Of a stretch of 64,000 bases of DNA, positions 9,686 through 63,838 are shown piece by piece. The notes under the pieces were generated by a model that made no database searches, was not told the origin of the DNA, and saw nothing but the letters and a program-made list of their open reading frames with translations. Both the position numbers and the translations under genes were made by a program. The stretch is from NCBI GenBank assembly GCA_016873435.1, contig VGXF01000001.1:124001-188000 (forward strand). Direction: 5' to 3'. The DNA comes from Nitrospira sp. (GTDB taxonomy: Bacteria; Nitrospirota; Nitrospiria; Nitrospirales; Nitrospiraceae). Every line of letters starts with the position of its first letter. Position 1 is the stretch's first letter.

Positions 9686-9955
9686 TTACCGTTTCGAGAA
9701 CAGATAGATGAGCAGGCTTAACACGACACTGATCACAATGCTCGTCGTCAGCGGAAAGTAAAAACTGACCCCCTCTCGCTTGATGGAAATATCACCCGGG
9801 AGTTTCCCAACCCAGCCGAACCACTCGCTTAACGGCCCACTTTCAGCGTGCCCCTTGGCCAGCAACAGGACGACTATGCCAGCGAGCATCAGCAGCCCGC
9901 CCGCCACCAGCAGCATCTTTCCCAAGCCGTCGAGTTCCGGCATGGTCCGGCTCAC
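9686..9955 (-). CDS. DUF2905 small membrane protein
   Basis: An 89-residue protein with two hydrophobic helices (KMLLVAGGLLMLAGIVVLLL and TTSIVISVVLSLLIYLF). A conserved loop, WVGKLPGDISIKREGVSFYFP, lies between them and is the hallmark of DUF2905. Function is unknown in the family. It overlaps the end of asd by four bases and is followed after two bases by the SpoIID-like gene, so it lies in one operon with both. Confidence 0.88.
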   Translation of the reverse strand: MSRTMPELDGLGKMLLVAGGLLMLAGIVVLLLAKGHAESGPLSEWFGWVGKLPGDISIKREGVSFYFPLTTSIVISVVLSLLIYLFSKR

Positions 9956-44628: not shown

Positions 44629-44856
44629 CCGACGACTTGATTGCGCGTGCCATGTCCGTTAAGTCAGGCATCGGCCCGAAAGGCCTAGCACCCTCTACCT
44701 GGGTAGCTCTTAATTCCGTTGGGGTGGGCCTTCTGTGGGCTTGCAGAAACGACCGAAAAAAGCATAAAGTACGCGCACATTTGCGGTTGTTTAAGGATTG
44801 TTCTTTATCCTGCGAGGACTGAGACCTTGCAGCATACTACCAAGGGGTTTACGGGA

Positions 44857-45489
44857 ATGACCCAGTACCGCGTCCTGCCTGGCCCTGAACACTTTCTGCC
44901 GCCCGCCGCGGCCTCCATGGGCATCCGGTTGCCCAACCCTGGTGAGGCGCACATCAACGGCGTAATTGTCCAGGAAGAGAAAGCTTTCGAGGAAGCGGCA
45001 CGCCAGTTCCTGCTGGCCAAAGTCCCGACAATCTTTCCGGGGCCGTTGGTACTCTGGGCCTGGAACGAAAAGGCGGCCAAGAAAGCGGCGGCCATTCGAC
45101 ACCTATACAACACGATCAAAGAATGCGTGACGCCCCAGCAGCATGCCATGCTGATTCCCATGCCGGACTACCGGCCGAAGTATCCGAAGATCAACCCCGA
45201 AGTCGAGATCAACCCAAACCACCCGAACCTGACCATCTGGCACAACAAGATCGACGCCTGCATGTTCGTCGGCGTCCATTGTCACCAGGCGAACCTATCC
45301 CTGAAGATCATCCGCGGCGGCACGTCCTGTTACACGGTCGCGATGTGCGCCCAGGCGGGCCACGAGGACGCCATGCTGTCCTTCCGCGATGCCACCGCCG
45401 ACAAGATCATGAAACTGGCCGAGACCGTCAAGCGACTCAAGGGCAGCGTCAAGTTCGATCCCAACGCCACGCGCAAAGCCGTCAGCTAA
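44857..45489 (+). CDS. forE: 2-oxoacid:ferredoxin oxidoreductase epsilon subunit
   Basis: A 210-residue protein found with five-subunit 2-oxoacid:ferredoxin oxidoreductases of the reductive TCA cycle in Hydrogenobacter and Nitrospira. Visible features are GPEHFLPPAAASMGIRLPNP at the N-terminus, PMPDYRPKYPKINPEVEINP, and a His/Cys-rich block FVGVHCHQANLSLKIIRGG with CAQAGHEDAML (H141, C142, H143). That block could bind a metal, but this is not established. ATG 44857 starts the unit and a near-identical orphan copy lies at 57969. The substrate, pyruvate or 2-oxoglutarate, cannot be told from sequence. Confidence 0.8.
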   Translation: MTQYRVLPGPEHFLPPAAASMGIRLPNPGEAHINGVIVQEEKAFEEAARQFLLAKVPTIFPGPLVLWAWNEKAAKKAAAIRHLYNTIKECVTPQQHAMLIPMPDYRPKYPKINPEVEINPNHPNLTIWHNKIDACMFVGVHCHQANLSLKIIRGGTSCYTVAMCAQAGHEDAMLSFRDATADKIMKLAETVKRLKGSVKFDPNATRKAVS

Positions 45490-45509
45490 GCACACAAGGA
45501 GGCCGGACC

Positions 45510-46721
45510 ATGGCGGAGAATAAATCCTTCATCGGCACCCAGAACAAGAAAAACCAGACCTACACAGACGCCTGGAAATTGCTCCACGAGGCGCCTCGTA
45601 CCCCGTCGTTCTTCACGGGCAGCGAGGTCATCAAGGAAGCCATCCGGCGGGCCAGCTGCGACGTGATGATCGCCTACCCCATCACCCCGCAGAGCGAAGC
45701 GGCCGCGCTGATCGGTGAGCTGTTCGCGGAAGGCTACATCGGCGACTACTTCCGAGGGGAGAGCGAATTTGCGGTCATGAGCCAGTGCGCCGGCGCAGCC
45801 TTTGGCGGCGCGCGGGTGTTCACGACAACGGCCGGCCCAGGCACGATGCGGGCCATGGAAAACTTCCCGATGTGGGCGGGTGCGCGGCTGCCGATCCAGA
45901 TGATTGTCACCTGCCGCGGCATCAACTCGCCGCTGTCGATCCAACCAGACACGCTGGAAATCGCCTACCTGCTGAATACCGGCATGCTGGTGTGGCACGC
46001 AGAGACCGCGCAGGACTTCTTCGACTGGATTCTTAAGGGCTACATAGTTTCCGAGGAACCGGACGTGCACCTGCCACTGGCGCTCTGCTGCGACGGCTTC
46101 TTTGTGACGCACACGAAGGACGTCGTCAACCTGACGCCGGCGGACATGTGCCTGCCTCCCTACGACCCCTATCGCTCGCCGGTCCCGTGCATGGACATGG
46201 AATGTCCCCCGGTCCGGATGATGCGCGATCCCTTCGTTATGAAGAGTAACTACATCAGCTATGCCACGCATGCCAGCTGGCAGCAGGAAGTTTGGGCAGC
46301 GATCGAGCGGTCGCGCAAGCACTCGATTAAGTGGCTGGATGGCCTGATCGATACTGAGAACATCGACGCGGACATCATGATCGTGGCCTCCGGCACCGCC
46401 GTGTCACAGGGCCGCGAAGCGATCCGCTTGCTGGAGGACGAGGGGGTCCGTTGCGGGCTCGTGAAAGTCAAAACCTTGCGGCCCTGGCCGGGCGACGAAA
46501 TCCGCGAGGCGACGAAGAACGCCAAGCACATCTTCGTGCCGGAGTTCAACGTCACCGGCTGGCTAGCCAAGGAAATCCGGGCCACGATCCCGAACAGCGA
46601 CCGCGTGCATGCCGGCCCGCACGTGTGCGGGGGCATGACAATGCCGCCGGAGATCATCGTCTCCGAGATCAAGACCACGCTGGGGATGCAAACTGTTTCC
46701 CTGGCCGGCCGCGGCAGCTGA
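45510..46721 (+). CDS. forA: 2-oxoacid:ferredoxin oxidoreductase alpha subunit
   Basis: A 403-residue alpha chain (PorA/KorA type). The pyrimidine-binding part has CDVMIAYPITPQSEAAALIG and GESEFAVMSQCAGAAFGGAR with TTAGPGTMRAMENFPM. The transketolase-like domain II starts at about residue 285 (DIMIVASGTAVSQGREAI). It forms the thiamine-diphosphate reaction centre with the beta chain, reductively carboxylating acetyl-CoA or succinyl-CoA or the reverse. AAGGAGG precedes the ATG at 45510. Confidence 0.92.
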   Translation: MAENKSFIGTQNKKNQTYTDAWKLLHEAPRTPSFFTGSEVIKEAIRRASCDVMIAYPITPQSEAAALIGELFAEGYIGDYFRGESEFAVMSQCAGAAFGGARVFTTTAGPGTMRAMENFPMWAGARLPIQMIVTCRGINSPLSIQPDTLEIAYLLNTGMLVWHAETAQDFFDWILKGYIVSEEPDVHLPLALCCDGFFVTHTKDVVNLTPADMCLPPYDPYRSPVPCMDMECPPVRMMRDPFVMKSNYISYATHASWQQEVWAAIERSRKHSIKWLDGLIDTENIDADIMIVASGTAVSQGREAIRLLEDEGVRCGLVKVKTLRPWPGDEIREATKNAKHIFVPEFNVTGWLAKEIRATIPNSDRVHAGPHVCGGMTMPPEIIVSEIKTTLGMQTVSLAGRGS

Positions 46722-46769
46722 CCGGTTGTTCGCAAATACGAATTCGAGCGCCCCAAACGAGGAGGCAAC

Positions 46770-47681
46770 ATGAGCAAGGAACGCATCAAGATTTCTCCGG
46801 ACCTGTTCGACATCATGCCCCAGGATTATCAGGATCTGGTTAAGCGGGCCACCTACGGTAAGGAGGACCGCGGCTGGAAGGACATCGGCCAGGCCAAGGA
46901 ATTGATCGAGGAGCATTCGCTCTGCGCCGGCTGCCCCGAATCCATGGCGTTCCGCTACATTCTGGCCTCGCTGCCGGCCCCGGAAGACACGGTCATGGTC
47001 GGCTCCACCGGCTGCACCAGCTTAGTGTTTCCGATGGTGGCGGTGCACAACATCCACTCGTTATTCGGTAACCAGAACGCCATCGCCTCTGGCCTCAAGC
47101 GGGCACTGACGGTCCGGTTCCCCGGCAAGGTCAAGGACGTCGTGGTGCTCGCCGGCGACGGCGCGACGGTGGACATCGGACTGGACATGACGCTTCAGGC
47201 CTGGTTTCGCCAGGAGAAGTTCACCACAATCTGCTTTGACAACGAGCTCTATGCCAACACAGGCGGTCAGGAAAGCGGTTTGATGCAAAAAGGCTTCGTG
47301 GCCAAGATGGCGCCAGTTGGCAAACTATTCGACAAGGTGCGCCTCCCCGAGATCGCCCGTGAGTCCGGCTGCCACTACGTCGTGAATTGTACGGTGAGCA
47401 AGCCGTCGCTCGTCGAGAAGGTGATCCGGAACGCGGTGCTGATCGCTCGCGAGATCGGTCCAACCTATCTGCAGCTCTACACGCCCTGCATCCTGGAGAT
47501 CGGCAAGAACAGCATGGAGGGCCTCCAGGAAATGCGCGATTCGGAGAAACCGACCGAGCGGTTCGCCTACAAGGAATACGTCAGCGAGCCGGCCAAGCAG
47601 TTCCTGGCCGAACTGGCTGCAAAGGACAAGGAACGGAAGGCTGCGGCCAAGCAACTGGCCGGCGCTACGCAGGAAGCCTAG
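46770..47681 (+). CDS. forB: 2-oxoacid:ferredoxin oxidoreductase beta subunit
   Basis: A 303-residue beta chain binding thiamine diphosphate and a [4Fe-4S] cluster. Cysteines in SLCAGCPESMAFR, STGCTSL and later CxxC-free positions match the cluster set. The ThDP/Mg motif is VVLAGDGATVDIGLDMTLQA and then NELYANTGGQESGL. It lies 48 bases after the alpha gene with GGAGG before the start. Confidence 0.93.
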   Translation: MSKERIKISPDLFDIMPQDYQDLVKRATYGKEDRGWKDIGQAKELIEEHSLCAGCPESMAFRYILASLPAPEDTVMVGSTGCTSLVFPMVAVHNIHSLFGNQNAIASGLKRALTVRFPGKVKDVVVLAGDGATVDIGLDMTLQAWFRQEKFTTICFDNELYANTGGQESGLMQKGFVAKMAPVGKLFDKVRLPEIARESGCHYVVNCTVSKPSLVEKVIRNAVLIAREIGPTYLQLYTPCILEIGKNSMEGLQEMRDSEKPTERFAYKEYVSEPAKQFLAELAAKDKERKAAAKQLAGATQEA

Positions 47682-47703
47682 ACCGGAGTAAAAGGAGCGC
47701 GCG

Positions 47704-48411
47704 ATGATCAAGAAACGGCTCAATATCCGGATGTCGGGCCTCGGCGGACAGGGCGCCGTCACAGCAGCCCACGTCATGGCCATGGCCGCCAACAAGGACG
47801 GCAAGTTCTCGATCTCCAACCCGTTCTTCGGCGCTGAAAAGCGCATGGCTCCGGCAGAAAGTTACTGCCGAATCGGCATCGAGCGAATCTACGACCGTGG
47901 CGAGCTGGTCTTCCCGGATGTGATCGAGGTGTTCCACCCGCAGGTGATTACGATGGGCAAGAGCTATACCATGCCCTTTTACTCGGGCATCAAAGAGGGC
48001 GGCGTCGTCATCATCAACTCGGGACTGCCCCTGTTGTCCGACGAGGACGTCCAGCGGTTGAAGGATTTGCACGTGGCCCTGTTTTACATCCCCGGCACCG
48101 AGATCGCGTTGGAAGTAGCCGGCACGGAGCTGTCCACGAACATGACGATGATCGGCTCGGTGGCCGGCATCACCAAGTGCGTGTCCATGGAAGCCTTGGA
48201 TGCGGCACTCCAAGAACGATTTGGCAAGAAGTTCGTCGCCTCCGGCGGTACGGCGTCGCTGGACGAAGCAATCAAGAAGAAGTTTGCCAAGAAGGAAATG
48301 CTGCTCCAGAAAAATCTGGCAACCGTCAAGCGGGCCTACGAAATCGCCTCGGAATGGGCGGAAAAGAACAAGATTGAGCTGCGCGTCGGCAATCCTGCCG
48401 TCGCCGCGTAA
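47704..48411 (+). CDS. forG: 2-oxoacid:ferredoxin oxidoreductase gamma subunit
   Basis: A 235-residue gamma chain. It opens with the family motif IRMSGLGGQGAVTAAHVMAM. NPFFGAEKRMAPAESYCRIG follows. Gamma chains interface with coenzyme A. A helical tail (KKKFAKKEMLLQKNLATVK) extends past the usual ~190 residues. Confidence 0.92.
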   Translation: MIKKRLNIRMSGLGGQGAVTAAHVMAMAANKDGKFSISNPFFGAEKRMAPAESYCRIGIERIYDRGELVFPDVIEVFHPQVITMGKSYTMPFYSGIKEGGVVIINSGLPLLSDEDVQRLKDLHVALFYIPGTEIALEVAGTELSTNMTMIGSVAGITKCVSMEALDAALQERFGKKFVASGGTASLDEAIKKKFAKKEMLLQKNLATVKRAYEIASEWAEKNKIELRVGNPAVAA

Positions 48412-51370: not shown

Positions 51371-52606
51371 TCAGCCCTCTTCCTCCGGTAACAAGTCGTG
51401 CCGTTCAGCGCGCATGTGCCGCTTTTCCCATGTCGGTTTCTTGAAGGGATCACGAAAGGCACGCCACAGCTCTTCGTCCAGGGCAAGCTCCGCTCTGGTC
51501 AACAGGCACGCATCTAGCCGCCGTTTCAAGTAGACGCGATCAATCTCCTCGCCCATGAAGGCCAGTTCAATCCGGCGATCCCCAAATTCGAGATCCCACA
51601 CCTTGCGCAGTTCGTCGAGTGCCTCCTCTTCATTCGGCCAGTGCCGATCCGGAATCGCCACCCACCAGCGGCCTAGCCGCTCGTAGAGGCAGTTGGCGCC
51701 AGCCTGCGACCACATATAACAAGTCTTCGGTTGTGAGGCGATCCAGAAATATCCTTTGGACCGCAGCACACCCAGCCACTCCTCTTGCATTAACAGCCAA
51801 AATCGGAACGGATGGAACGGCCGTTTCGCTCGATAGACGAACGTCCCTGTTGCACGATCGCCTTTTGGCAGCGACGTCCCGCTCAACGCATGCATCCAGC
51901 CGGGTGTGATTTCTAGCGCCGCCCCCTCATGAGAGCGCGTAGTCTCTAGCAACAAGGGATCGCGGTCTCCCTGAGACACCGCCATGCACCCTGCATCAGG
52001 GTTGACCTGCCAAAGAAACCGCTCAAGACGCTCCCGCTCGACCGGTGTCACACGATCGCACTTGCTCAGCACGAGCGTCGTGCTGAATTCCAGTTGATCC
52101 GCCAGTAATTCAGCGAGGGTTCGCGCATCATCCGGTCCCGTGCCGAGCCCCCGCTCACGGAGCGTGGTCCCGGACTCATAGTCTTCCCAAAAACGCTCCG
52201 CATCAACGACCGTCACCAAGTGGTCCAAACGCGCGACAGCGGAAACGGTGACCCCCTCGGTCTCATCGGCATCGAAGAGATTGGCGATCAGGAGCGGATC
52301 CGTGCTACTTGAACTTTCAATGAGAATGGTGTCGTATTTGCCCAAGCTCGTCAGCCGAATGATTGCTTCAGCGACATGCTGACGCAAGGAACACTGAGTA
52401 CATGCAGCCGTCAACTCGACAAGAGCTTCACCACGAAGGTAGTGCTCTCCGCCAAAAATCTCGATCTCGCCAGTTAATCCGCTCAGGTCGTTCGTGATGA
52501 CCGCCGTCCGCGTTGGATTCAGTTCACGCACCAGACGCCGAAGCACTGTCGTCTTCCCGACACCGAGAAAACCTGATACCACGATAACGCTTACCTTGTT
52601 ACTCAT
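51371..52606 (-). CDS. COG0523 (CobW/ZNG1-like) GTPase, degenerate subtype, copy 1
   Basis: A 411-residue G3E-family P-loop protein. Walker A is VSGFLGVGKTTVLRRL (residues ~10-24). The usual CxCC metal motif is replaced by ACTQCSLRQ (C69, C72), and the NKxD guanine motif by VLSKCDRV. The C-terminal CobW_C domain is kept (RPFHPFRFWLL and MWSQAGANCLYERL). COG0523 proteins are GTP-driven metal chaperones. ATG 52604-52606 with AGGAAG upstream is used. It is the downstream-most of four tandem copies. Confidence 0.88.
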   Translation of the reverse strand: MSNKVSVIVVSGFLGVGKTTVLRRLVRELNPTRTAVITNDLSGLTGEIEIFGGEHYLRGEALVELTAACTQCSLRQHVAEAIIRLTSLGKYDTILIESSSSTDPLLIANLFDADETEGVTVSAVARLDHLVTVVDAERFWEDYESGTTLRERGLGTGPDDARTLAELLADQLEFSTTLVLSKCDRVTPVERERLERFLWQVNPDAGCMAVSQGDRDPLLLETTRSHEGAALEITPGWMHALSGTSLPKGDRATGTFVYRAKRPFHPFRFWLLMQEEWLGVLRSKGYFWIASQPKTCYMWSQAGANCLYERLGRWWVAIPDRHWPNEEEALDELRKVWDLEFGDRRIELAFMGEEIDRVYLKRRLDACLLTRAELALDEELWRAFRDPFKKPTWEKRHMRAERHDLLPEEEG

Positions 52607-52647
52607 ACCGCTTCCTCTCAACGCCTGGGTTCTCAACCCACTCCGAC

Positions 52648-53847
52648 TCAGCTCCAACGCGGAAACGGATCCGGATATTTCTGCCAAGCGGGTTTGCCCT
52701 CGGCTAGCTCCGTATCGGTCAGCAGGCATGCGTCAAGGTCTGCACGGAGCGCCGCCTCATCCATCCGCTGACCGATGATGACGATCTGTTGGCGCCGGTC
52801 GCCGAAATTGGGATGCCACATCGCCTTGAGCTGCGCCTTCACCTCAGCGGAGTCGGGCCACTGCTCTTCCGGTATCATGGCCCGCCACCACCCCATCGGG
52901 CCGAGTTGCCACACAGTCCCAGCCAGCGACAACAGCCCGATAAACTCCAGCCGGCCAGCCAAATACACCAACCCTTTGGCGCGCAACACGCCGGGCCAAG
53001 GTCGGCTCAACTGGTCCGCCAACCGCTGCGCATGAAATGGGCGACGACTCCGATAGACAAAACTTGCAATGTCGTATTCTTGGGATTCCGAACGCGTGCC
53101 TTCGCGCAGCGTTTTCATCCACCCAGCCGCCTGCGAGGCTCTGGCGAATTCGAATCGTCTCGTATTGAGGATCTCTGCTGGTGATACGTGCCCATATTGC
53201 ACTGAGCGGATCACCGCGTCTGGATTCAACGTTGCGAGAATCGTTGTCAGTTCCTGCAGAGCCTGCGGTTCCATCAAGTCGGTCTTGTTCACAACGAGCA
53301 CGTTCGCAAATTCCACCTGATCGATCAGCAGATCGGTGATGGTCCGCTCATCCTGCTCGCTCACCGCCAGGCCACGCTCTTTCAACTCCACGCCTTCTCG
53401 ATAGTCGTGGAGAAACCGCGGGCCGTCCACTACCGTGACCATGGTATCGAGCCGCGACAGGTCGGCCAACGCCTGCCCCTGCGCGTTTTCAAACGTAAAG
53501 GTCTCCGCTACCGGCATCGGCTCTGAGATGCCAGTTGACTCGATGAGCAGATACTCAAACCGCCCCTCTTCCGCTAGCCGGGCGACTTCGTTCAGCAGGT
53601 CTTCCCGTAACGTGCAACAGATGCAGCCGTTGCTCATTTCCACTAGCTTCTCTTCCGTGCGACTTAGCGCCGCACCGCCGTCAGCCACCAGCAGCGCATC
53701 AATGTTTACCTCGCTCATGTCGTTCACAATCACCGCTACGCGTAACCCTTCCCGATTGTGCAGTACGTGGTTAAGTACCGTGGTTTTTCCTGCTCCAAGA
53801 AATCCCGACAAGACCGTCACCGGCAACCGCGCCGTGTCCGTGCGCAT
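52648..53847 (-). CDS. COG0523 (CobW/ZNG1-like) GTPase, canonical subtype, copy 2
   Basis: A 399-residue canonical member. Walker A is [18 protein letters not shown] (~13-30), the metal-binding CxCC is [13 protein letters not shown] (C75, C77, C78), the switch region is [15 protein letters not shown] and the guanine motif is VVNKTDLM. The CobW_C domain follows from about residue 245. It starts immediately after the stop of copy 3. Known relatives deliver zinc to client enzymes under starvation. Confidence 0.93.
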
Positions 53848-55128
53848 CTACCGCTCCTCCGACGTCGTCGACAGACCATCCGATTCCACCACTGTTTCCG
53901 TTGGCGGAAAGCGGTCCGGCTTCCCTTCCCACGACGACCGCCCGGAGGCCCATTCCGCTTCCGTCACCAGACAAGCGTCCAGCTTCGCCGTCAGCGCTGC
54001 ATGATCCATTCGTCGACCAATCAGCACCAGTTCTTGACTGCGATCGCCGTACTCCGGATCCCACACTCCCTGGAGGCGCTGATATTCTTCTTCCTCTTCC
54101 GGCCAATCATCCTTAGGCATCGCGGCATACCAGCGCCCGGCCCACCGTACGTTGCCGGTCCCGCCCGCCTGCGACCACAGCCCGATGAGATCCGAGCGCG
54201 TGGCGATCCAGAACAGCCCCTTCGACCGGAGGACGCCAGGCCATGACTCCTGGAAGCAGTACCAGAGCCGCTCTGGATGAAACGGACGCCTAGCCCGGTA
54301 CACCATAGTGGTAATCCCGTATTCGTCGGCCTCGGACCGTTCGTGCCCGCGCAAGGTTTTCATCCAGCCTGCAGCCTGGCTGGCCCGCTCAAAATCGAAG
54401 GCCCTGGTGTTCAAGATGACGTTGAGATTAATTTGCCCGTGCCGAATCGAGACACACCGCGCTTCAGGGTTCAACGCGGCAAGGATGGCCGTCAGTTCGC
54501 ACAGCTCGCTCTCGGACACCAGGTCCGCCTTGTTGATCAGCAGCACATCGGCAAACTCGACTTGATCGATGAGCAGATCTGTGATGGTGCGCTCATCCTC
54601 GCCGCCGACGCCGAGCCCTCTGGCTTGGAGATCCTCCGCTTCGTGATAGTCTTTGAGGAAGTTGACCGCATCGATGACAGTAACCATCGTATCCAGTCGC
54701 GCGACGCCAGTCAGACCGCCTCCCGATTCGTTCTCAAATTGAAACGTCTCAGCGACCGGCATCGGTTCCGAGATTCCCGTCGACTCGATTAGCAGATAGT
54801 CGAACCGCCGCGCCTCTGCCAGCCGTGCCACTTCCTTCAGAAGATCTTCTCGCAAGGTGCAGCAGATGCAGCCGTTGCTCATCTTGACCAGCTGCTCGTC
54901 GGTGCGGCTCAATTCGGCCCCTCCTTGCTCGATCAGCTTCGCATCGATATTCACCTCGCTCATGTCGTTGACGATGACCGCCACACGCAACCCTTCTCGA
55001 TTGTGTAGCACGTGGTTGAGCACGGTGGTCTTCCCTGCGCCAAGAAACCCCGACAGAACTGTCACTGGCAAGCGCTGATCAACTCTCCCAGTCTCAGGAA
55101 CGGGCTTTGTCGTCACATGAGTTGCCAT
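53848..55128 (-). CDS. COG0523 (CobW/ZNG1-like) GTPase, canonical subtype, copy 3
   Basis: A 426-residue paralogue of copy 2 with a longer N-terminal tail. Walker A is [17 protein letters not shown] (~24-40), CxCC is [13 protein letters not shown] (C87, C89, C90), the switch is [11 protein letters not shown] and the guanine motif is LINKADLVS. CobW_C contains [21 protein letters not shown] 55126-55128 with AAGGAGGAG upstream is used. Its start overlaps copy 4 by 35 bases. Copies 2 and 3 share long identical stretches, pointing to a fairly recent duplication. Confidence 0.93.
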
Positions 55129-56407
55129 CAGTCTCCTCCTTGTCCGAATCTCCGTCGTCGTGGGCATCGGTCTGGGCGAGCGCGCGGGCGAAGGGATCGT
55201 CAAATCGTCGCCAGCTGGATTCACCCTCCAGCACCTCCGCCGGTGTCAACAGGCAGCGCTCAAGTTGTCGTCGCCAGTCCACGGCATCCAAGTGATAGCC
55301 GATCCAGCCGAACGTCTGCCTCCGGTCGCCGAACTCGACGGACCACTGCCGCTTGAGCTCTGCCTCAAACGCGGGATCGGCGGGCCATTGGTCCCGCGGC
55401 GTGGCCGCCCACCAATCTCCGATACACTCAAAATGTCTCGATCCGGCCGTCTGCTCCCAGGAAAAACACCGCTCCGGTTGAGATGCGACCCAGAAATGCC
55501 CTTTGCACCGAAGCAATCCCACCCAATCGGATTCGATCAGATCCCACAAACGCTCTGGATGGAAGGGGCGCGTGGCCCGAAATACCCCCATCGCCCAGTG
55601 AACCGATGAAATCGTCGGCAGTGGCGCACCTTGGATGAGCTTGGCCCAGCCGGGCTGAAAACTGATCGGCATCGAGGCCGGCATCCGTGCTCCAAGGATT
55701 TGTCCTGCCAGATTCGATTCATCCGCCATCAACAAAATCATGGCTTCCGGGTTCAACGCTTCAAGCAGGTGCCGTAACCGCCGCAGCTTTCCGCTCGGTA
55801 GCCCCTCCGTCTTGGACAGCACCAGCACCGTCGCATACTCCACCTGGTCCACGACCAGTTCAGAAATCGTCCGCCCGTCATCCGTTCCGCAACTCACACC
55901 GCGAGCCTGCAAGTCGTCCACGGTGTGCAGATCGCCCCAAAAGGTCTGGCTGTCAACCACCGTAACCAGGTGATCGAGTCGTGCCTTTGATGCCAGCGGC
56001 TCTTGGTTCTCCCAGGCATCGTTGAAGACTTCGGCAACGAAGACCGGCTCGACCAATCCGGAACACTCCACCAGCAGTCGATCAAACCGTTCCATGGCGG
56101 CGATCGCCATAACGGCGCTCGTCAAGCTGTCGCGCAAGGAACAGCCGACGCACCGCTCAACCAACTCGGCCAGGACTTCACCAAGGCTGAATATGGTCAC
56201 TCCTTGCGATCGACAGAAGTCTGCATCCAATCCGGCATCGCTGCGGTCATGGACTAGTAGGGCCACACGCCCGGAGGCTCGCTCGGTGAGGAGTTTCCAC
56301 ACCATCGTGCTCTTCCCGGCTCCGACAAACCCGCAAACGACAGTGACCGGAAGCCGGCTACCATCCGACTCGGTTTGTGCGGGGGGCTCAGACAGCGGGA
56401 TCGCCAC
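55094..56407 (-). CDS. COG0523 (CobW/ZNG1-like) GTPase, degenerate subtype, copy 4
   Basis: A 437-residue protein starting at a GTG (56405-56407) with GGGAGG upstream. Walker A is [18 protein letters not shown] (~23-40). The metal motif reads [12 protein letters not shown] (C86, C89, no CxCC) and the guanine motif reads VLSKTEGL. The switch is [15 protein letters not shown]. CobW_C contains [18 protein letters not shown]. The tail is acidic. Like copy 1 it is a diverged partner of the canonical pair. It overlaps the L31 gene by 20 bases. Confidence 0.88.
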
Positions 56408-56672
56408 GACGACCTCCCGCTGCACCACGGCCTCGATATTTCTTATTAAATTTCTCGACTCGCCCTTCGGTATCGATGATGCGCTGCGTTCCCGTATACA
56501 ACGGATGCGAGTACATCGATGTGTCGACTTTGTAAATTGGATAGGTTCGTCCGTCTTCCCAAACCGTCGTCTGATCGGTCTGCACCGTCGACATCATTAC
56601 CCAACGCTTGCCGATCGCGACATCGTGAAAGACAACCGGACGATAGCCCGTCGGATGGATACCAGGTTTCAT
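56388..56672 (-). CDS. rpmE2: 50S ribosomal protein L31 type B, zinc-independent (C-) form
   Basis: A 94-residue L31 of the RpmE2/YkgM type, with no cysteine at all. It begins [20 protein letters not shown] and has the L31 end [20 protein letters not shown] plus a basic tail. In other bacteria this paralogue replaces the zinc form when zinc is scarce and is repressed by Zur. ATG 56670-56672 follows AAGGAG. The zinc form lies at 41617. Confidence 0.95.
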
Positions 56673-56704
56673 CACGTCTCCTTGCGCTCAGCCACGAACG
56701 CCGG

Positions 56705-57010
56705 CTACCAGCTTGATTTCCGCACGCCGGGAATCTCACCCTTCAGCGCGTGCAGGCGAAAGTCGATCCGCGACATGTCGAATCGGCCCACATATCCCCG
56801 CACGCGCCCCGAGATCGCACAGCGATTGCGCACCCGGACGGGCGACGAATTCCTCGGCAATTTCTGTAGCGACTGCTGTGCCTCCTGCTTCTGCTCCTCG
56901 GTACTCGCCTGCCCCTTGATCACCGCTTTCAACGCCTTGCGCCGCTCAGCATACTGCGCGACCAATCGCTTGCGTTTCTCGTTTCTTAATCGACTGCTCA
57001 ACTTTGCCAT
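56705..57010 (-). CDS. rpsN: 30S ribosomal protein S14, zinc-independent (C-) form
   Basis: A 101-residue S14 of the long type without CxxC zinc ligands (a single cysteine in [16 protein letters not shown]). It starts [20 protein letters not shown]. The short zinc type would be ~61 residues with four cysteines. It lies between S18 and L31 copies. Confidence 0.93.
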
Positions 57011-57059: not shown

Positions 57060-57275
57060 TCAGTAGTCTGATCGCCCACCGAACGGCAACATTGCCATAT
57101 GCCGCGCACGTTTGATCGCACGGGCAATTTCTCGCTGCCGCTGCTGACTATTCCCCGTCATGCGACGAGGGAGGATCCGTCCATTCTCTGTGATGAATCT
57201 CCGCAACCATTCGACATTTTTCCAATCCACGGGCGTGATCACATCGATCACGCGACGTCGTCGTTCTTCAGGCAT
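57060..57275 (-). CDS. rpsR: 30S ribosomal protein S18, cysteine-free form
   Basis: A 71-residue S18 with no cysteine. It begins MPEERRRRVIDVITPVDWKN and continues with FITENGRILPRRMTGNSQQR and QREIARAIKRARHMAMLPF. ATG 57273-57275 follows TAAGGAG; earlier in-frame codons lack family support. S18 and S14 open the ribosomal part of the island, matching the order in known Zur-controlled sets. Confidence 0.93.
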   Translation of the reverse strand: MPEERRRRVIDVITPVDWKNVEWLRRFITENGRILPRRMTGNSQQRQREIARAIKRARHMAMLPFGGRSDY

Positions 57276-57416
57276 GCATCGCTCCTTAGTTGACTGGACT
57301 GAGATTGGCTCCGCCGGTCCCTCACCGACTCTTTGCCTAAACGTCACGCGTAACACGTGAGGACGTCAGACACGGACAAGTCCGCGCACTGACGGAATCA
57401 ACACGATGCGAAGAGA

Positions 57417-57767
57417 TCAACCGAGAACGGGTGGACCGCGAGACTGAAGGGTGAGGGCCAGCAGAATCGAGAAAATCTGCGGCATTGAGATCGTGACAGG
57501 ATGTGACGGAACCAGCACGGACGGCAGGACGGGGACCGCTCCGGACAGCCCCGAACTGGCAGCCCATTCCAACCATGCGTGGATATCGATGTCGGAGTGA
57601 CTGGCATCTCCCGCCTGCATAGCCGAGTAGTGGTCGACGAGGAGATAAGGCAAGGGCAGCGCAACCAGTACATAGAGCACTGCCACGGCAGCGACGAGTA
57701 CTCGTCGAGGCAATGCTATCTGCACCGATCTCAGCACGGGATTACACCAATCCATAGCGCGCTTCAC
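57417..57767 (-). CDS. Small membrane protein (DUF2946-like layout), unknown
   Basis: About 116 residues (GTG at 57767) or 112 (ATG at 57755). A hydrophobic helix, RVLVAAVAVLYVLVALPLPY, follows a short N-terminus. A loop with DASHSDIDIHAWLEWAA comes next, then a second helix ending LTLQSRGPPVLG. The C-terminal SRGPP ending resembles DUF2946 proteins linked to metal-related clusters; the match is weak. The loop holds histidines and aspartates that could bind metal. It overlaps the upstream gene by 26 bases. Confidence 0.55.
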   Translation of the reverse strand: MKRAMDWCNPVLRSVQIALPRRVLVAAVAVLYVLVALPLPYLLVDHYSAMQAGDASHSDIDIHAWLEWAASSGLSGAVPVLPSVLVPSHPVTISMPQIFSILLALTLQSRGPPVLG

Positions 57768-57960
57768 ATTTCAGCGCACTTTCGTCGAATTCTTGTGCGC
57801 CTACACCGACCCACTGTCCCTGCTGGACTGTAAAACATTGCGCGCAGGTCTGGTCATAAAAGGGCGATAGGCCGATGATCCACTCACGGGAAAACTCTCG
57901 TTGGTATTCCTTGGGGAGGAAGGCCATGAACCCGGACGGTGGTGGTGAAAACTCGGACAT
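57742..57960 (-). CDS. Small CxxC-containing hypothetical protein, 72 residues
   Basis: It begins MSEFSPPPSGFMAFLPKEYQ and has a CAQC pair in YDQTCAQCFTVQQGQWVGVG and one more cysteine near the end (ALKCEARYGLV). No family recognised. It is eight bases downstream of the orphan epsilon-subunit gene and overlaps the next gene, so all three are likely co-transcribed. Confidence 0.6.
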   Translation of the reverse strand: MSEFSPPPSGFMAFLPKEYQREFSREWIIGLSPFYDQTCAQCFTVQQGQWVGVGAQEFDESALKCEARYGLV

Positions 57961-57968
57961 CTCAACTC

Positions 57969-58583
57969 CTACTGCACCGCGACGGGCCCCGGGACAGTCC
58001 CCTTCAGTTCACGCACTTTGTCGGCCAGACGGATAATATGCTCCGGCGTGATGTCGCGAAACGATAACATGGCATCCTCGTGCCCAGCCTGCGCGCACAT
58101 TGCCATGGTGTAGCAATTCGTCCCGCCCCGCACAATTTTCAAGGTCAGATTCGCTTGATGGCAATGGACCCCGATAAACAAACACGCATCGATCCGGTTG
58201 TGCCAAATCGTCAAGTTTGGATGGTTCGGGTTGATCTCAACCTCTGGATTGATCTTCGGATACTTGGGTCGATAGTCCGGCATTGGAATCAACATCGGCT
58301 TCTGATTGGGCCCCACACTCTCCTTCAATACAGTAAAGAGGTGACGAATCGCCTTCGCCTTCTTCTCGGCCGTGGGCGTCCAAGCCCACAACACCAGTGG
58401 TCCCGGGAAGATCGTTGGCACCTTGGCGCTCAGGAAGCGCCGCGCCGCCTCCTCCATCGCCTGCTCCTCACGCACGATATACCCGTGCACGATCGCTTCG
58501 CCTGGATTGGGCAATCGCACACCCATGCTGGCCGCAGCCGGTGGTAAAAAATGCTCGGGCCCAGGTCGAACCTCGTAACGCAC
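57969..58583 (-). CDS. Orphan paralogue of the 2-oxoacid:ferredoxin oxidoreductase epsilon subunit
   Basis: About 204 residues, highly similar along its whole length to the epsilon subunit at 44857. Shared blocks are GPEHFLPPAAASMGVRLPNP, MLIPMPDYRPKYPKINPEVE and the HCHQ block GVHCHQANLTLKIVRGG with CAQAGHEDAML. No alpha, beta, gamma or delta genes accompany it. Start: GTG at 58583, matching the paralogue's N-terminus with GAGGA upstream; a GTG at 58598 would add five residues. A Fur-family-like dyad lies about 22 bases upstream. It heads the zinc-island transcript. Confidence 0.85.
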   Translation of the reverse strand: MRYEVRPGPEHFLPPAAASMGVRLPNPGEAIVHGYIVREEQAMEEAARRFLSAKVPTIFPGPLVLWAWTPTAEKKAKAIRHLFTVLKESVGPNQKPMLIPMPDYRPKYPKINPEVEINPNHPNLTIWHNRIDACLFIGVHCHQANLTLKIVRGGTNCYTMAMCAQAGHEDAMLSFRDITPEHIIRLADKVRELKGTVPGPVAVQ

Positions 58584-58604
58584 CGCAGGAGTCCTCACAT
58601 TATT

Positions 58605-58619
58605 AAATGCAATTCATTT
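58605..58619. promoter_or_regulatory. Candidate Fur/Zur-family operator
   Basis: A 15-bp dyad, AAATGCAATTCATTT, with six of seven matched positions around a single central base (7-1-7 layout). It is in an AT-rich patch just upstream of the orphan epsilon gene and overlaps the probable -10 region. Fur-family boxes typically have this shape. The binding regulator is inferred only; no zur or fur gene is in the window. Confidence 0.45.
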
Positions 58620-58786
58620 GCAATACTGGCGGCATCATACACGGATAGAATCTCCGATGCAAGACACCCCATTGGCTCTATGGATCGGCGTCCTATCCCG
58701 CTCCGAACCCATCGGGACAATCAGCATGGTAGAGTCCGACCTCCGGTTCGAAAAACGGCAACGGGTGTACGTCCTTCATCCCAACC

Positions 58787-59812
58787 TCACCTCGGCGAGT
58801 CGCTGACAGGAAGCCTAGAAGCCAGAAGCCTGCCGGCATCGAGCGCGCCGTACGTCACAATCAGATCGGCGCCAGCGCGGTGCATGGCACTGAGTGATTC
58901 CAACAACGCCTCTTCGTAGCTGAACATGCCAATTGCTGCAGCAGCCTTGAGCATGGCGTACTCCCCACTCACGTGATAGACCGCCACTGGAAGAGTTGAA
59001 TGGCCCCGAACGAGAGACACGATGTCCAGATACGGCAAACCGGGTTTCACCATCAGCCAATCTGCACCCTCGTCTTCATCCAACCGGATTTCCTTCAACG
59101 CCTCGCGGTGATTCGCGGGATCCATCTGATAGGTCCGCTTGTCACCGACCCGCGGGGCGCTCTCCAGGGCTTCACGAAACGGCCCATAGAATGCTGAGGC
59201 ATACTTCACAGCATAACTGCAGATGCCGACCTGTGAGTAGCCTGCCGCATCCAATGCCTCACGGATCACCCCAATCCGTCCATCCATCATGTCTGAGGGA
59301 GCCACAAGATCCGCCCCAGCCTGCGCTTGAACTACGGCCATCTCCGCCAACAACGGAAGGGTCGCATCATTGTCGATCTTTCCATCAATCACCACTCCGT
59401 CATGCCCGTCCGATGAATAGGGATCGAGCGCCACATCACTGAGGATCAGCAGATCTGGCGCCGCGGCCTTCAGGGCGCGGATTGCCCTCGCCATCAACCC
59501 GTCCCGGTTGCGACTTTCCTGTCCTCGCGGGTCCTTGAGGTGATTCGGTACCACCGGAAACAACGCGATGCCGGCGAGGCCAGCACGGGACGCTTCCGCG
59601 ACCTGCTCGATAGCTTGGTCGATCGAGACCCGCGCGCAGCCCGGCATGGAGGCGATCGGCGTGACCTGCCCGACCCCTTCCTGCACAAACAACGGCCAGA
59701 TCAATTGCTGCGGGGCCAGTTGATCCGTCGATCGCCTTGCCCGAAGCGTTGTCCGTGTACGATGGAGCGAGGACGATTCGCAGCGCGTGGGTGGAATCGA
59801 GTGAAGGTTCAT
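58787..59812 (-). CDS. hemB: Delta-aminolevulinic acid dehydratase without the zinc-cysteine site
   Basis: A 341-residue porphobilinogen synthase. The two active-site lysines are in CSYAVKYASAFYGPFREAL and MVKPGLPYLD. The position of the catalytic-zinc cysteines (E. coli C120, C122, C130) reads A128, D130, D138 in DVALDPYSSDGHDG, the aspartate type that does not use catalytic zinc. Start ATG 59810-59812 overlaps the ParA-like stop (ATGA). A zinc-sparing paralogue of HemB is a known companion of COG0523 genes. Confidence 0.93.
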   Translation of the reverse strand: MNLHSIPPTRCESSSLHRTRTTLRARRSTDQLAPQQLIWPLFVQEGVGQVTPIASMPGCARVSIDQAIEQVAEASRAGLAGIALFPVVPNHLKDPRGQESRNRDGLMARAIRALKAAAPDLLILSDVALDPYSSDGHDGVVIDGKIDNDATLPLLAEMAVVQAQAGADLVAPSDMMDGRIGVIREALDAAGYSQVGICSYAVKYASAFYGPFREALESAPRVGDKRTYQMDPANHREALKEIRLDEDEGADWLMVKPGLPYLDIVSLVRGHSTLPVAVYHVSGEYAMLKAAAAIGMFSYEEALLESLSAMHRAGADLIVTYGALDAGRLLASRLPVSDSPR

Positions 59813-60408
59813 TCCCAAGGCTCTTTGACCATTCGCATCAGACAGTCGATTGCCCAAGTCGTGAGCGGTTGCCCTTCCATCACGTTCGACCAGATCGCTT
59901 CCCATCGGATGACCGCTGGAGAAATTCTGAATCCCTTGCTCTCCACGGCGGCCCGCATAGCCGATGTCGGCCACTCCACGACTTGATTCCATAACACCCG
60001 CATGGCCGGATTGATCCCTTCATCCCCAAGCGTCGCACGCAAAGCTGCGACCCCCTCCAACGCCCAGATGTCGGGATAGGACGGGCGAACTGGTACGAAC
60101 ACCTGGTCGGCTGCACGCAGAATGCTCGTTGTCATATCGGACAACATCGGCGGTCCGTCGACGACCATCCACTCAAAGCTCGGCGCAAATCTGGATGCTT
60201 GCTCGTGCACGATCGGCTGAATCTGCGAACGGGCCACGACACGGAATTGTTCTCCCCAGTGGCTCGCCCATTCACTTGCCGTCCCTTGCACATCCGCATC
60301 CAGCAAGAGTACGCGAGCCCCCTGCTCCGCCAATGCCATCGCGGTCGCAATCGCCAGGGTCGTCTTTCCCGTGCCGCCCTTCTGGTGGAGAAACGCGACC
60401 GTGCGCAT
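59809..60408 (-). CDS. Small ParA/MinD-type ATPase coupled to hemB
   Basis: A 199-residue SIMIBI-class ATPase. The deviant Walker A is FLHQKGGTGKTTLAIATAMA (two lysines). Walker A' is VLLLDADVQGTASEWA and the switch-like WMVVDGPPMLSDM follows. It lacks a DNA-binding N-terminus and no parB is adjacent. Standalone members partition plasmids or position proteins; some relatives (CooC, NifH, Mrp) insert metals. It lies nine bases after pyrC and overlaps hemB, so a link to metal or cofactor handling is plausible but unproven. Confidence 0.82.
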   Translation of the reverse strand: MRTVAFLHQKGGTGKTTLAIATAMALAEQGARVLLLDADVQGTASEWASHWGEQFRVVARSQIQPIVHEQASRFAPSFEWMVVDGPPMLSDMTTSILRAADQVFVPVRPSYPDIWALEGVAALRATLGDEGINPAMRVLWNQVVEWPTSAMRAAVESKGFRISPAVIRWEAIWSNVMEGQPLTTWAIDCLMRMVKEPWE

Positions 60409-60417
60409 GGATCCCGC

Positions 60418-61737
60418 TCACGCGGCGCGGGGCTCCCAATGTCGAATCCGCCCCCCGACAACAGTCATTATGACTCGACCCCGCACCGGCCATCCGGCAA
60501 ACGGCGTATTCCGCCCCTTTGAGAGGAACTGCTCTGGATCAACGACCCATTCGCGCGTACGATCCACCACGACAATGTCGGCTGATACTCCGGGCGCCAA
60601 TGTACCACCCGGCAATCCCAACAACCCGGCCGGCTTGCTGGTCAAACACTGCACGGCACGCTCCAGAGGCAAGACACCCTGCTCGACAAGCCGCAGCGTC
60701 AAGGCCAACGCCGTCTCCAGTCCCACGATCCCGAACGGGGCTCGCTCCATACCCCATTGTTTTTCATACTCCGCGTGAGGGGCATGGTCTGTCGAAATCG
60801 CGTCGATGGTTCCGTCTACAAGCCCCTCCAGTAATGCGTCTCGGTCCCGCTCACTCCGTAAAGGTGGATTCATCTTGGCATTGACGCCCTGCTCGCGAAC
60901 CGCTTCGTCGGTCAACGTGAAATGATGCGGACAGACCTCGGCCGTCACCCGCAAACCCTTGACCTTGGCCTGACGCACCAGGTCTACCCCGACCGCCGTG
61001 CTGAGATGTGCGACATGGAGTCGTGCACCCGTCTCTTCGGTTAGCCTGATGTCTCGCGCAATCATTCGAAACTCTGCGCCGGTTGGAATGCCCGGGACCC
61101 CCAACACACGCGACACTGGCCCTTCGTTCATACAGCCACAACCGGATAGGATCAGATCCTCGCAATGGTCAATCACAGGCAGATCGACATCCGATGCCTG
61201 CTTCATTGCCTGTTGCATGACCTCATCATTCATCACCGGCCGCCCATCATCCGACAGCGCGACACAGCCCGCCTCTTTCAAGGCTCGAAAATCGGTCAAC
61301 TCACGGCCGGCTGCCCCCTTGGTAATCGCGCCGATCGGATAGACCTTGGCACGATCGGCTTCGCCGGACTTCCGCTTAATGAACTGCGTCACTGTCGGCT
61401 CATCGTTCACCGGCTTCGTGTTCGGCATACAGCAGATCGACGTGAAGCCCCCTGCCACGGCTGCCGCCGTCCCGGTGGCGATGGTTTCCTTATATTCAAA
61501 GCCTGGCTCACGCAGATGGACATGGAGATCGACGAGGCCCGGCAACACCAGCAACCCTGTGATATCCAGACGCGCTGCCTCCCGGGGAGGAGCCTCATCC
61601 GGCGAGACCACCGCATCAATCACTCCATCTCTGATCCACACATCGGCTTTGCCGTTCCAGCGGCCCGGGTCAAGCACCCAGCCGCCGGCGAGGATCAGGA
61701 AGGAGGGCTGCTCCTCGGTATTGAACCTATTGACCAT
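60418..61737 (-). CDS. pyrC: Dihydroorotase (class I)
   Basis: A 439-residue amidohydrolase of pyrimidine synthesis. All zinc-ligand positions are visible: HVHLREPG (HxH), the aspartate/lysine region SDDGRPVMND, DHCED, HVAHLST and the catalytic STDHAPH. The fold is therefore expected to be active and to need metal. PyrC paralogues recur in COG0523/zinc clusters, where they are thought to be a starvation-time copy. ATG 61735-61737 starts it; the histidine-rich gene is divergent. Confidence 0.92.
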   Translation of the reverse strand: MVNRFNTEEQPSFLILAGGWVLDPGRWNGKADVWIRDGVIDAVVSPDEAPPREAARLDITGLLVLPGLVDLHVHLREPGFEYKETIATGTAAAVAGGFTSICCMPNTKPVNDEPTVTQFIKRKSGEADRAKVYPIGAITKGAAGRELTDFRALKEAGCVALSDDGRPVMNDEVMQQAMKQASDVDLPVIDHCEDLILSGCGCMNEGPVSRVLGVPGIPTGAEFRMIARDIRLTEETGARLHVAHLSTAVGVDLVRQAKVKGLRVTAEVCPHHFTLTDEAVREQGVNAKMNPPLRSERDRDALLEGLVDGTIDAISTDHAPHAEYEKQWGMERAPFGIVGLETALALTLRLVEQGVLPLERAVQCLTSKPAGLLGLPGGTLAPGVSADIVVVDRTREWVVDPEQFLSKGRNTPFAGWPVRGRVIMTVVGGRIRHWEPRAA

Positions 61738-61797
61738 CCACCACCATCAAGCCTAGTATCAACGTGCCTCGGCCCTTCTCACGAAAGGAGTTCTCCG

Positions 61798-62145
61798 ATG
61801 AGCGACCACCCCATCCATGAGCATCACGCCCATCAGCACGGAACGAACTGTGGGCATCTGGCCGTCCTCCATGACGGTCATATCGATTATCTCCATGACG
61901 GACATCTTCATCATCCGCACGGCGACCATGTCGATGAACATCGGCTCGGTATCACCACGCAAAACCCGGCGGGATGCACCCCCACCCATCGCTGCGAAGG
62001 GCATGAGTCCGAACATCGCCATGGCCCGAACTGCGGACATCAAGCGGTGCCGCACGGAGACCATATTGATTATCTGGTCGCCGGCCATTTGCACTTCGCC
62101 CATGGCGCGCATTGTGACGACCATGGGGCCCTACGACTCGCGTAG
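61798..62145 (+). CDS. Histidine-rich metal-binding repeat protein
   Basis: A 115-residue protein with 28 histidines. It has two copies of the module NCGHxAVxHxxHIDYL (at 17-32 and 78-93), each followed by GHLH and HGxHxDxH patterns, plus cysteines at 18, 60, 66, 79 and 106. No signal peptide. Such proteins can store or buffer Zn, Ni or Co. AAAGGAG precedes the ATG. It is divergent from pyrC and its end overlaps the thiol-peroxidase gene by 15 bases. Confidence 0.85.
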   Translation: MSDHPIHEHHAHQHGTNCGHLAVLHDGHIDYLHDGHLHHPHGDHVDEHRLGITTQNPAGCTPTHRCEGHESEHRHGPNCGHQAVPHGDHIDYLVAGHLHFAHGAHCDDHGALRLA

Positions 62146-62718
62146 GAACGATTCGTCACTATCGGTGCGGGACGCCTGACTCAACGACGTCCCGCGCTTT
62201 GCGCTCAGCCGTTCTAGAAACCCGCTTACCTCTGCTGGTCGCATCTGATCGAGCGGTATATCGACTTCTAGAAACACACCATCCCGTAGCGCAAACAGCC
62301 CGTGCGCGATGCGCTGATGATCCTCCACGCCGACTCCAAACGCCGACACAAAGGCCTCTCGACTCGCCGGATCCGCACAGCAGAGGGAATAGCCTGCGGC
62401 GCGAACATTCGGATGAAACCGGTCGACTTCTTGCCAGTGCGCCTCATGATCCGCTGAGACATGGACAATCTTGAGATCCAGCAACTGCCCACGACCACGC
62501 TCTTCCAGATCCACGATCTGTGCAAGGCACGCGTGTTTCTGGATGTTCGGCAATGTGGAAACCACGACCAGCCCACGGCAAAGTTCATCCGCCGTAAGCG
62601 GTGTATCCGCCAACCTTGCAGCCGGAATGGTGAACTCGACGGTCAGGCGCTCTCCAGGAGATGGAGTCCGTCCCTGTAAATTAATGACCCGCTCTCCCAA
62701 CTGTGCTTCCCTGCTCAT
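62131..62718 (-). CDS. Thiol-peroxidase-like (Tpx/peroxiredoxin) protein
   Basis: A 195-residue thioredoxin-fold protein resembling atypical Tpx. The peroxidatic region is VVSTLPNIQKHACLAQIVDL, with the cysteine in the expected place, and a vicinal CC occurs further on (NVRAAGYSLCCADPASREAF) as a possible resolving pair. It starts 17 bases after the ZIP gene stop and is read leftward with it. A role in protecting thiol metal sites is inferred. Confidence 0.72.
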   Translation of the reverse strand: MSREAQLGERVINLQGRTPSPGERLTVEFTIPAARLADTPLTADELCRGLVVVSTLPNIQKHACLAQIVDLEERGRGQLLDLKIVHVSADHEAHWQEVDRFHPNVRAAGYSLCCADPASREAFVSAFGVGVEDHQRIAHGLFALRDGVFLEVDIPLDQMRPAEVSGFLERLSAKRGTSLSQASRTDSDESFLRES

Positions 62719-62735
62719 CCCCCAAACTTCCTTCG

Positions 62736-63542
62736 TTAATGCGCGAGCATCGTCAGCATTGCGATCGTCACCATGCCGGCGATCATCATGGCGAACTGCA
62801 ACACCCCCTTGGCCGCCCCCATGCGCCCGTGCAGACCAGGGACCAAGTCTGCCAGGCCAATGTAGAGAAAACTTGCGGCTGCCACGCTGAGGGCATAGGG
62901 CACGATCGCCTCCGCGTAGCCGAGGCCGCCATAGGCGGCAACGGCCCCGACCAGCGTCCCCAGCCCCGAGAGCGTGTTCCAGAAAAAAGCCTTCCAGCGA
63001 GAAAACCCACTCGACAGGAGGATGGTGAAATCGCTGAATTCTTGCGGGACTTCATGGCCCAACACCGCGAGCGTCGTGACGAGACCGAGTCCCGGTGAGG
63101 CTACGCAGGCCGCACCGATGGCAATGCCGTCAGCGGTGTTGTGGACGGCATCGCCGATCAGCACCAGCATGCCTGTGTGCGTTCCTCCGACCGGCGCATG
63201 ATCATGAGCCTGGCCGGTGCCACGAGGGCCCTCAGCAGGTTCCTCCCCGTGCGCATGTCGCCAGATCACCGTCCACTCCAGCACGAAAAACAGAACAAGC
63301 CCACCCAGAATCGACAGTCCTACTTCGTAGCTAGGAATATGCTCCAAGGCCTCGGGGATCAGCCCAATGATTGCGGTGGCCAACATCGTGCCTGTGGCAT
63401 AACTCAGCAGATACGGCATCGCCCGATGCCGCCAGCCGTCGGGAACGAATAAGATGACGGCAGCAGGCAGCAGCGCCCCCAGGCTCCCAAGCAGCCCCAT
63501 CAGAACGACGAATTCCCAGGACGATTCGGCAGGAAGCGTCAT
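62736..63542 (-). CDS. ZIP-family metal transporter
   Basis: A 268-residue membrane protein with about eight helices. The ZIP signatures are in the transport-site helices: IGDAVHNTADGIAIGAA (TM4, H-N-D) and VLGHEVPQEFSDFTILL (TM5, H-E). A histidine-rich loop (AHGEEPAEGPRGTGQAHDHA) lies between TM3 and TM4 and is typical of zinc ZIPs. Uptake of Zn2+ is likely, though ZIPs can carry Fe, Mn or Cd. It overlaps the upstream gene by four bases (ATGA). Confidence 0.92.
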   Translation of the reverse strand: MTLPAESSWEFVVLMGLLGSLGALLPAAVILFVPDGWRHRAMPYLLSYATGTMLATAIIGLIPEALEHIPSYEVGLSILGGLVLFFVLEWTVIWRHAHGEEPAEGPRGTGQAHDHAPVGGTHTGMLVLIGDAVHNTADGIAIGAACVASPGLGLVTTLAVLGHEVPQEFSDFTILLSSGFSRWKAFFWNTLSGLGTLVGAVAAYGGLGYAEAIVPYALSVAAASFLYIGLADLVPGLHGRMGAAKGVLQFAMMIAGMVTIAMLTMLAH

Positions 63543-63838
63543 GATAGGCGTTTCTTCTCTCGATAATCGGCATATCGCTGTTCACAGGGGGCAATCGACG
63601 AATCTCCCAAGAATCGTGACCACTCACTATGGGTGGAGACATCGACACCCTCGGCCCGAGCTTCCCGCTGGAGGACAACCTGAAGGTCAAGGAGCAGGTC
63701 TGACTCGTCGATATCGGCCTCCGAGTCGGCCCGCAACTGGGCAAACATTGCTCGGTAGATGCGCTTGAGTTCGTCGAGCGAACAATCAAGTACAAAGCGG
63801 TTCTGCTGTTTCGTGATACGTGATTCTAAAGGAGACAT
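63539..63838 (-). CDS. Hypothetical protein translationally coupled to the ZIP transporter
   Basis: A 99-residue soluble protein beginning MSPLESRITKQQNRFVLDCS and then LDELKRIYRAMFAQLRADSE. The middle is acidic (ADIDESDLLLDLQVVLQREA) and there are single cysteines only. I do not recognise a family. The four-base overlap with the ZIP gene means co-expression, so it may act in metal uptake or its control. Confidence 0.62.
   Translation of the reverse strand: MSPLESRITKQQNRFVLDCSLDELKRIYRAMFAQLRADSEADIDESDLLLDLQVVLQREARAEGVDVSTHSEWSRFLGDSSIAPCEQRYADYREKKRLS

Follow-up and report, generated by a model that had tools for sequence, protein, structure and literature searches.

The window analysed here is the whole stretch of 64,000 nucleotides on contig 1 of a Nitrospira MAG (1.72 Mb, 33 contigs, 98.5% complete). 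It contains a minus-strand gene set, referred to as operon 2, that runs from 58598 down to 51371 and encodes a PF02552 protein, two small proteins, copies of the ribosomal proteins S18, S14 and L31 type B, and four COG0523 GTPases. The first gene (57969-58583) encodes a CODH/ACS-epsilon-like paralogue of an oxidoreductase subunit (Pfam 136 bits); its listed reading frame starts at 58598, and the GTG at 58583 was judged to be the start from sister genes. Next come a small protein (57742-57960) and a small membrane-like protein with a His/Asp-rich loop (57417-57767), neither of which has a Pfam family. The copies of S18 (57060-57356) and S14 (56705-57010) are without CxxC and L31 type B (56388-56675) has no Cys at all, while the other copies of each protein in the genome have CxxC. 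The COG0523 (CobW-family) GTPases occupy 51371-56428 (individually 55094-56428, 53848-55224, 52648-53847 and 51371-52729, all on the minus strand) and all four carry the Pfam domains cobW and CobW_C, the one at 53848-55224 scoring above the NCBIfam ZigA cut-off.

The upstream half of the cluster lies on the same strand, and its part within the window (58787-63838) encodes a HemB paralogue, a ParA-like protein, a dihydroorotase, an unnamed protein, a ZIP transporter and a small protein. Its head, a Fur-family regulator gene at 69048-69464 with a site of its own at 69478-69492 (both in window numbering), is outside the window; overall this half holds, besides the ZIP, dihydroorotase, ParA-like and HemB genes, three more COG0523 genes, a WD40 gene and a gene for a molybdopterin-binding-domain protein. 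The ZIP protein is the putative zinc importer here. The metal loop of the HemB paralogue (DVALDPYSSDGHDG) is without Cys; the genome's other HemB has Cys in this loop (DVCIDEYTSHGHCG), which we take to be zinc ligands. This assignment agrees with the accessible part of PMC2770081.

Several further features were observed in and around the cluster. Seven COG0523 GTPases, each with both Pfam CobW domains, are packed into about 18 kb (52648-55224 on the minus strand vs 63884-68729), an unusually large set. A WD40 protein, encoded between COG0523 GTPases beyond the window at 66697-67764 (window numbering), is conserved across many relatives as part of the regulator operon. On the plus strand, against the direction of the operon, 61798-62145 encodes a His-rich protein of 115 aa (HEHHAHQHG...HLHHPHGDH) with no Pfam family, which is 86-92% conserved in three sister clusters and is possibly a metal buffer. 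Between hemB and the operator, 58693-58779 (minus strand) holds a DHHA1-like gene remnant of 28 codons followed by a stop; the locus has a full-length frame in the genomes G144, DeepCast and G141, and a remnant is also present in G162.

The operator candidate was originally predicted as a Fur/Zur-like 7-1-7 dyad at 58605-58619, in a sharp AT-rich patch in front of a gene island. The predicted 15-mer AAATGCAATTCATTT is present at these positions, and the patch is real, with 80% A+T at 58600-58624 against a window mean of 40.5%; only four distinct patches in the window reach 80%. There is also an inverted repeat of the 7-1-7 form, but its conserved centre is shifted rightward by 3 bp, to 58608-58622. 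Both centres pair at 6/7 positions in the window. In the five genomes with the promoter, the 58605-58619 centre keeps 6, 3, 3, 4 and 6 of 7 pairs, as against 6, 6, 6, 7 and 6 of 7 for 58608-58622. Because only the latter pairing is kept in sister genomes, the centre was moved to 58608-58622, and 58605-58619 (no strand), which overlaps the operator, was ruled out as the functional centre. The shifted dyad TGCAANTNANTTGCA has 0 mismatches to TGCAA-NTNAN-TTGCA and is its single exact match in the window. The putative Fur-family (Zur-type) operator core is thus TGCAATTCATTTGCA at 58608-58622 (no strand), enclosed by an extended box at 58604-58626, and it has the form of an operator, being a 7-1-7 inverted repeat at a promoter with 6/7 pairs in the window and 6-7/7 across the five genomes. 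As for its place before the island, the site heads the second half of the cluster and therefore stands mid-cluster, not before the whole zinc gene cluster.

The same first gene stands behind the site in five genomes, those of the window, G141, G162, G144 and the DeepCast MAG (G144 and UBA5698 being counted as one genome). Among these, the arm columns of the operator are invariant (12/12) and none of the three spacer columns is. In the flanks, 2/14 columns upstream and 6/10 downstream are invariant, in a count made without gaps and aligned at the site, which understates the upstream columns where the spacing differs by one base. Upstream of the site, a predicted -35 (TTGCAT, 58657-58662, minus strand) and a predicted -10 (TATGAT, 58634-58639, minus strand) are kept with their spacing of 17 bp in 5/5 genomes, and the related genome G044 has TTGCAT-N17-TAAGAT; a simple promoter scan of the window did not list the TATGAT at 58634-58639 among its matches. 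The site had been thought to overlap the likely -10 region, a placement that does not hold, since the conserved TATGAT lies upstream of it. The AT run after the site (TTTAATAAT) was also considered as a -10 and was rejected, being unconserved, whereas the upstream TTGCAT-N17-TATGAT is conserved. In the window, the operator core starts 11 bp downstream of the end of the -10 and therefore should cover the first transcribed bases, so that the operator would lie over the predicted transcription start of operon 2. At the promoters of the regulator genes, TTGACA is found in 8/8 of those listed, and there the site adjoins the -10 region.

In the whole of its own genome, the exact pattern TGCAA-NTNAN-TTGCA occurs at two places, against 0 for the reversed control. 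The second copy (contig 1, 193478-193492, equal to 69478-69492 in window numbering) sits 13 bp upstream of the FUR-family gene, about 10.9 kb from the window site. With two mismatches allowed, 23 places are found vs 15 in the reversed control, and the weak sites of this genome are for this reason mostly noise. Four sites have one mismatch, three inside long ORFs and one just upstream of a thioredoxin-like ORF (contig 20, 8012-8026); the latter is probably due to chance because its matrix score is 8.3, and none of the four is claimed as a target. In this scoring, a symmetric matrix of 23 columns (27 regulator-orthologue sites with 23 distinct cores, own genome left out; consensus TAATTGCAAGTCACTTGCAATTA) gave 28.8 bits to 58608-58622, rank 1 in the window with a runner-up of 7.4, and 32.5 to the regulator's own site at 69478-69492, while the best score across 12 simulated windows was 12.0; these scores are partly circular, since the pattern that chose the training sites was derived from the window site, and shuffles and a reversed-pattern control served as guards.

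The motif was expected to recur before znu/zur-type genes. It does so before the cluster's Fur-family gene, and not before znuA: a single ZnuA gene was found, on contig 4, and it has no site nearby (best matrix score -2.5). A box before the znu importer genes is not needed in every Zur regulon, and here the cluster has a ZIP gene in its place. The motif is not scattered at random positions with no link to metal genes, as both exact copies head zinc-type genes.

Among 99 genomes, the exact pattern was found at 22 places in 18 genomes (reversed control, 4), and 32 of the 99 have a cluster-regulator orthologue at E below 1e-40; the relatives retrieved by a cluster-protein query are Nitrospira MAGs. 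The exact motif is present in 15/32 genomes with the regulator vs 3/67 without it (Fisher p 1.1e-6, relatedness not corrected), and in these three the matches are all inside ORFs. Upstream DNA was read for 28 of the 30 fetched orthologues, own genome included (the loci of G086 and G092 are outside the 30), and every one of the 28 has the motif with 10-12 of 12 letters, at 13 to 81 bp upstream of the matched gene. That it stands in front of both the cluster's own Fur-family gene and every orthologue read supports, as independent data, the assignment of the site to the Fur family.

The link to metal genes was also seen in a wider set of genomes. The extended pattern TAAWTGCAANNNANTTGCA occurs at 44 places in 37/269 genomes of the class, with 0 in the reversed control, and 40 of these sites precede the regulator or an operon-2 head gene. 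The nearest downstream gene is the regulator at 24 sites, a small His-containing membrane protein (the operon-2 head in relatives) at 12, and the PF02552 first gene at four. The membrane-protein class (12/44) carries less weight than the regulator class (24/44), because its queries were partly taken from loci found by the motif. At the other four sites neither the regulator nor an operon-2 head gene lies downstream; three are inside one reading frame common to three genomes, and the fourth lies between unrelated frames on a contig with masked stretches.

The first gene of operon 2 shares 76% identity with the PF02552 chain that starts an oxidoreductase-type gene set at 44719-48411, which was named a five-subunit 2-oxoacid:ferredoxin oxidoreductase from a reading of its frames. 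The view of the first gene as a 'Cys-minus' copy found no support, as the island copies (three, compared with 28 canonical copies) keep nearly all of the conserved Cys/His. They have lost one His (position 36) that is otherwise invariant, and they carry Ser where 22/28 canonical copies have Cys and 6/28 have Ser. The AlphaFold model of the first gene (mean pLDDT 51) is too poor for use. In G044 the first gene is absent, and the retained site therefore stands before the next gene, the small protein (57742-57960 in the window). In G040, the closest genome by regulator (89%), a decayed first-gene fragment is found at about 9805-9894; the operon-2 operator is gone there and the regulator's own site is kept. 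Because G044 has the site and not the gene, and G040 a decayed fragment and not the site, the first gene would appear either to have entered behind an existing operator or to have been lost in G044.

Which metal the regulator senses is a separate question. The cluster regulator passes Pfam FUR. Its NCBIfam matches are to Fur, PerR and Irr models only, all below the cut-off, and its best PDB sequence matches are Fur and PerR, with Zur (2o03, 3mwm) and Nur (3eyy) almost equal in score. The conserved Cys/His comprise two CxxC pairs and an HHHH run (13/30 fetched orthologues), which leave its metal unsettled. The minus strand of the window site reads TTGCAA-ATGAA-TTGCAT and fits the Nur box tTGCaa-N5-ttGCAA of Streptomyces coelicolor, where, according to the accessible part of PMC3919588, the box controls sodF by nickel. 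The arms agree letter for letter, so a nickel-responsive Nur or a Fur-family regulator of some other metal could be the protein that reads this operator, with the zinc-type genes under that signal, and the near tie of the Zur and Nur structures would suit it. The genes behind the box speak for another metal: zinc-free ribosomal paralogues, a ZigA-type GTPase and a ZIP transporter point to zinc, and neither of the two exact sites in this genome has a nickel gene, whether for transport or SOD, beside it. This gene content strongly favours zinc over other metals, and control by nickel or another metal is accordingly improbable. It is the controlled genes that favour Zur over other Fur-family regulators; the motif does not, being identical to the Nur box.

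The genome also has a second FUR-family gene (contig 1, 111256-111609), whose product could bind the site as an iron or peroxide operator. This is very unlikely, as the surroundings of that gene lack the motif (the best matrix score there is 3.4) and motif presence among genomes tracks the cluster regulator. Still less credible is a chance palindrome in an AT-rich promoter with no regulatory role. It is true that the pattern at 58605-58619 is found about as often as expected by chance (AAATG-N5-CATTT, one mismatch allowed, has 1 match in the window vs 1.25 expected) and that the reversed control yields almost as many two-mismatch matches; against chance stand the two exact copies in the genome vs none in the control, the link to the regulator, and conservation of the arms but not the spacer in five genomes, a pattern that contradicts it.

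The window site is thus most likely a Zur operator of the Fur family. More fully, 58608-58622 is very probably the operator through which a zinc-responsive repressor (Zur) would control operon 2. This repressor is encoded some 10.9 kb off, at the opposite end of the cluster, and its own promoter has the same operator. With plentiful zinc, a zinc-loaded Zur dimer would sit on the 7-1-7 repeat, cover the predicted transcription start of operon 2 and thereby block transcription. When zinc is scarce, Zur would be released from the operator, and the PFOR-subunit paralogue, the zinc-free S18, S14 and L31, and the COG0523 GTPases, as putative zinc-allocation proteins, would be made. Some findings run counter to Zur: the box corresponds to the Streptomyces Nur box, not to a Zur box from the literature, the regulator is assigned by none of the NCBIfam models, the ZnuA gene is without a site, 4/44 extended sites are without the expected gene, three genomes have the exact motif but not the regulator, and the operon-2 site is lost in G040.

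The accessible parts of PMC2770081 and PMC6103462 describe Zur regulons that include zinc-free paralogues as well as COG0523 GTPases. The present cluster is like them in having a Fur-family repressor gene, a 7-1-7 operator at both the regulator's own and the target promoters, zinc-free ribosomal paralogues, COG0523 GTPases, and HemB and dihydroorotase paralogues. Unlike them, its box differs in letters from the E. coli Zur motif as quoted in the available part of PMC6103462, there is no znuABC under the box, and a PF02552 oxidoreductase-subunit paralogue comes first. The Nur box stands before sodF in Streptomyces coelicolor (nickel), and the same box here stands before zinc-type genes. In the five-subunit PFOR/OGOR of Aquificaceae, the CODH/ACS-epsilon-like chain is the delta subunit, whose role is given as unclear in the part of PMC10052474 at hand; it belongs to the same family as the first gene here, but in contrast to that enzyme, the extra copy lies outside the enzyme operon and behind a zinc-type operator. 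A literature search on a Nitrospira zinc (Zur) regulon returned no paper on this subject, its one match being on quorum sensing in acidophiles, none of the matches listed for Zur regulons with COG0523 names Nitrospira, and the literal box strings matched only the Nur paper (PMC3919588).

The points of interest are the Nur-like box and the carbon-enzyme subunit paralogue as first target. We tentatively suggest, as a possibility that is rather doubtful as a whole, that in one Nitrospira branch a duplicated CODH/ACS-epsilon-like subunit of the CO2-fixing 2-oxoacid:ferredoxin oxidoreductase was set between a zinc-repressor operator and the remainder of a zinc-starvation operon, so that zinc shortage might swap a subunit of a central carbon enzyme in the way it would swap ribosomal proteins, under a repressor that reads a nickel-type (Nur) box. 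That a zinc-type operator should match the Nur box cautions against reading the metal from box letters alone. For Nitrospira, a box close to TAAWTGCAANTNANTTGCAWTTA defines a zinc regulon at the sequence level in a form that can be tested, and in this regulon the paralogue of a carbon-fixing enzyme subunit is placed under likely zinc control.
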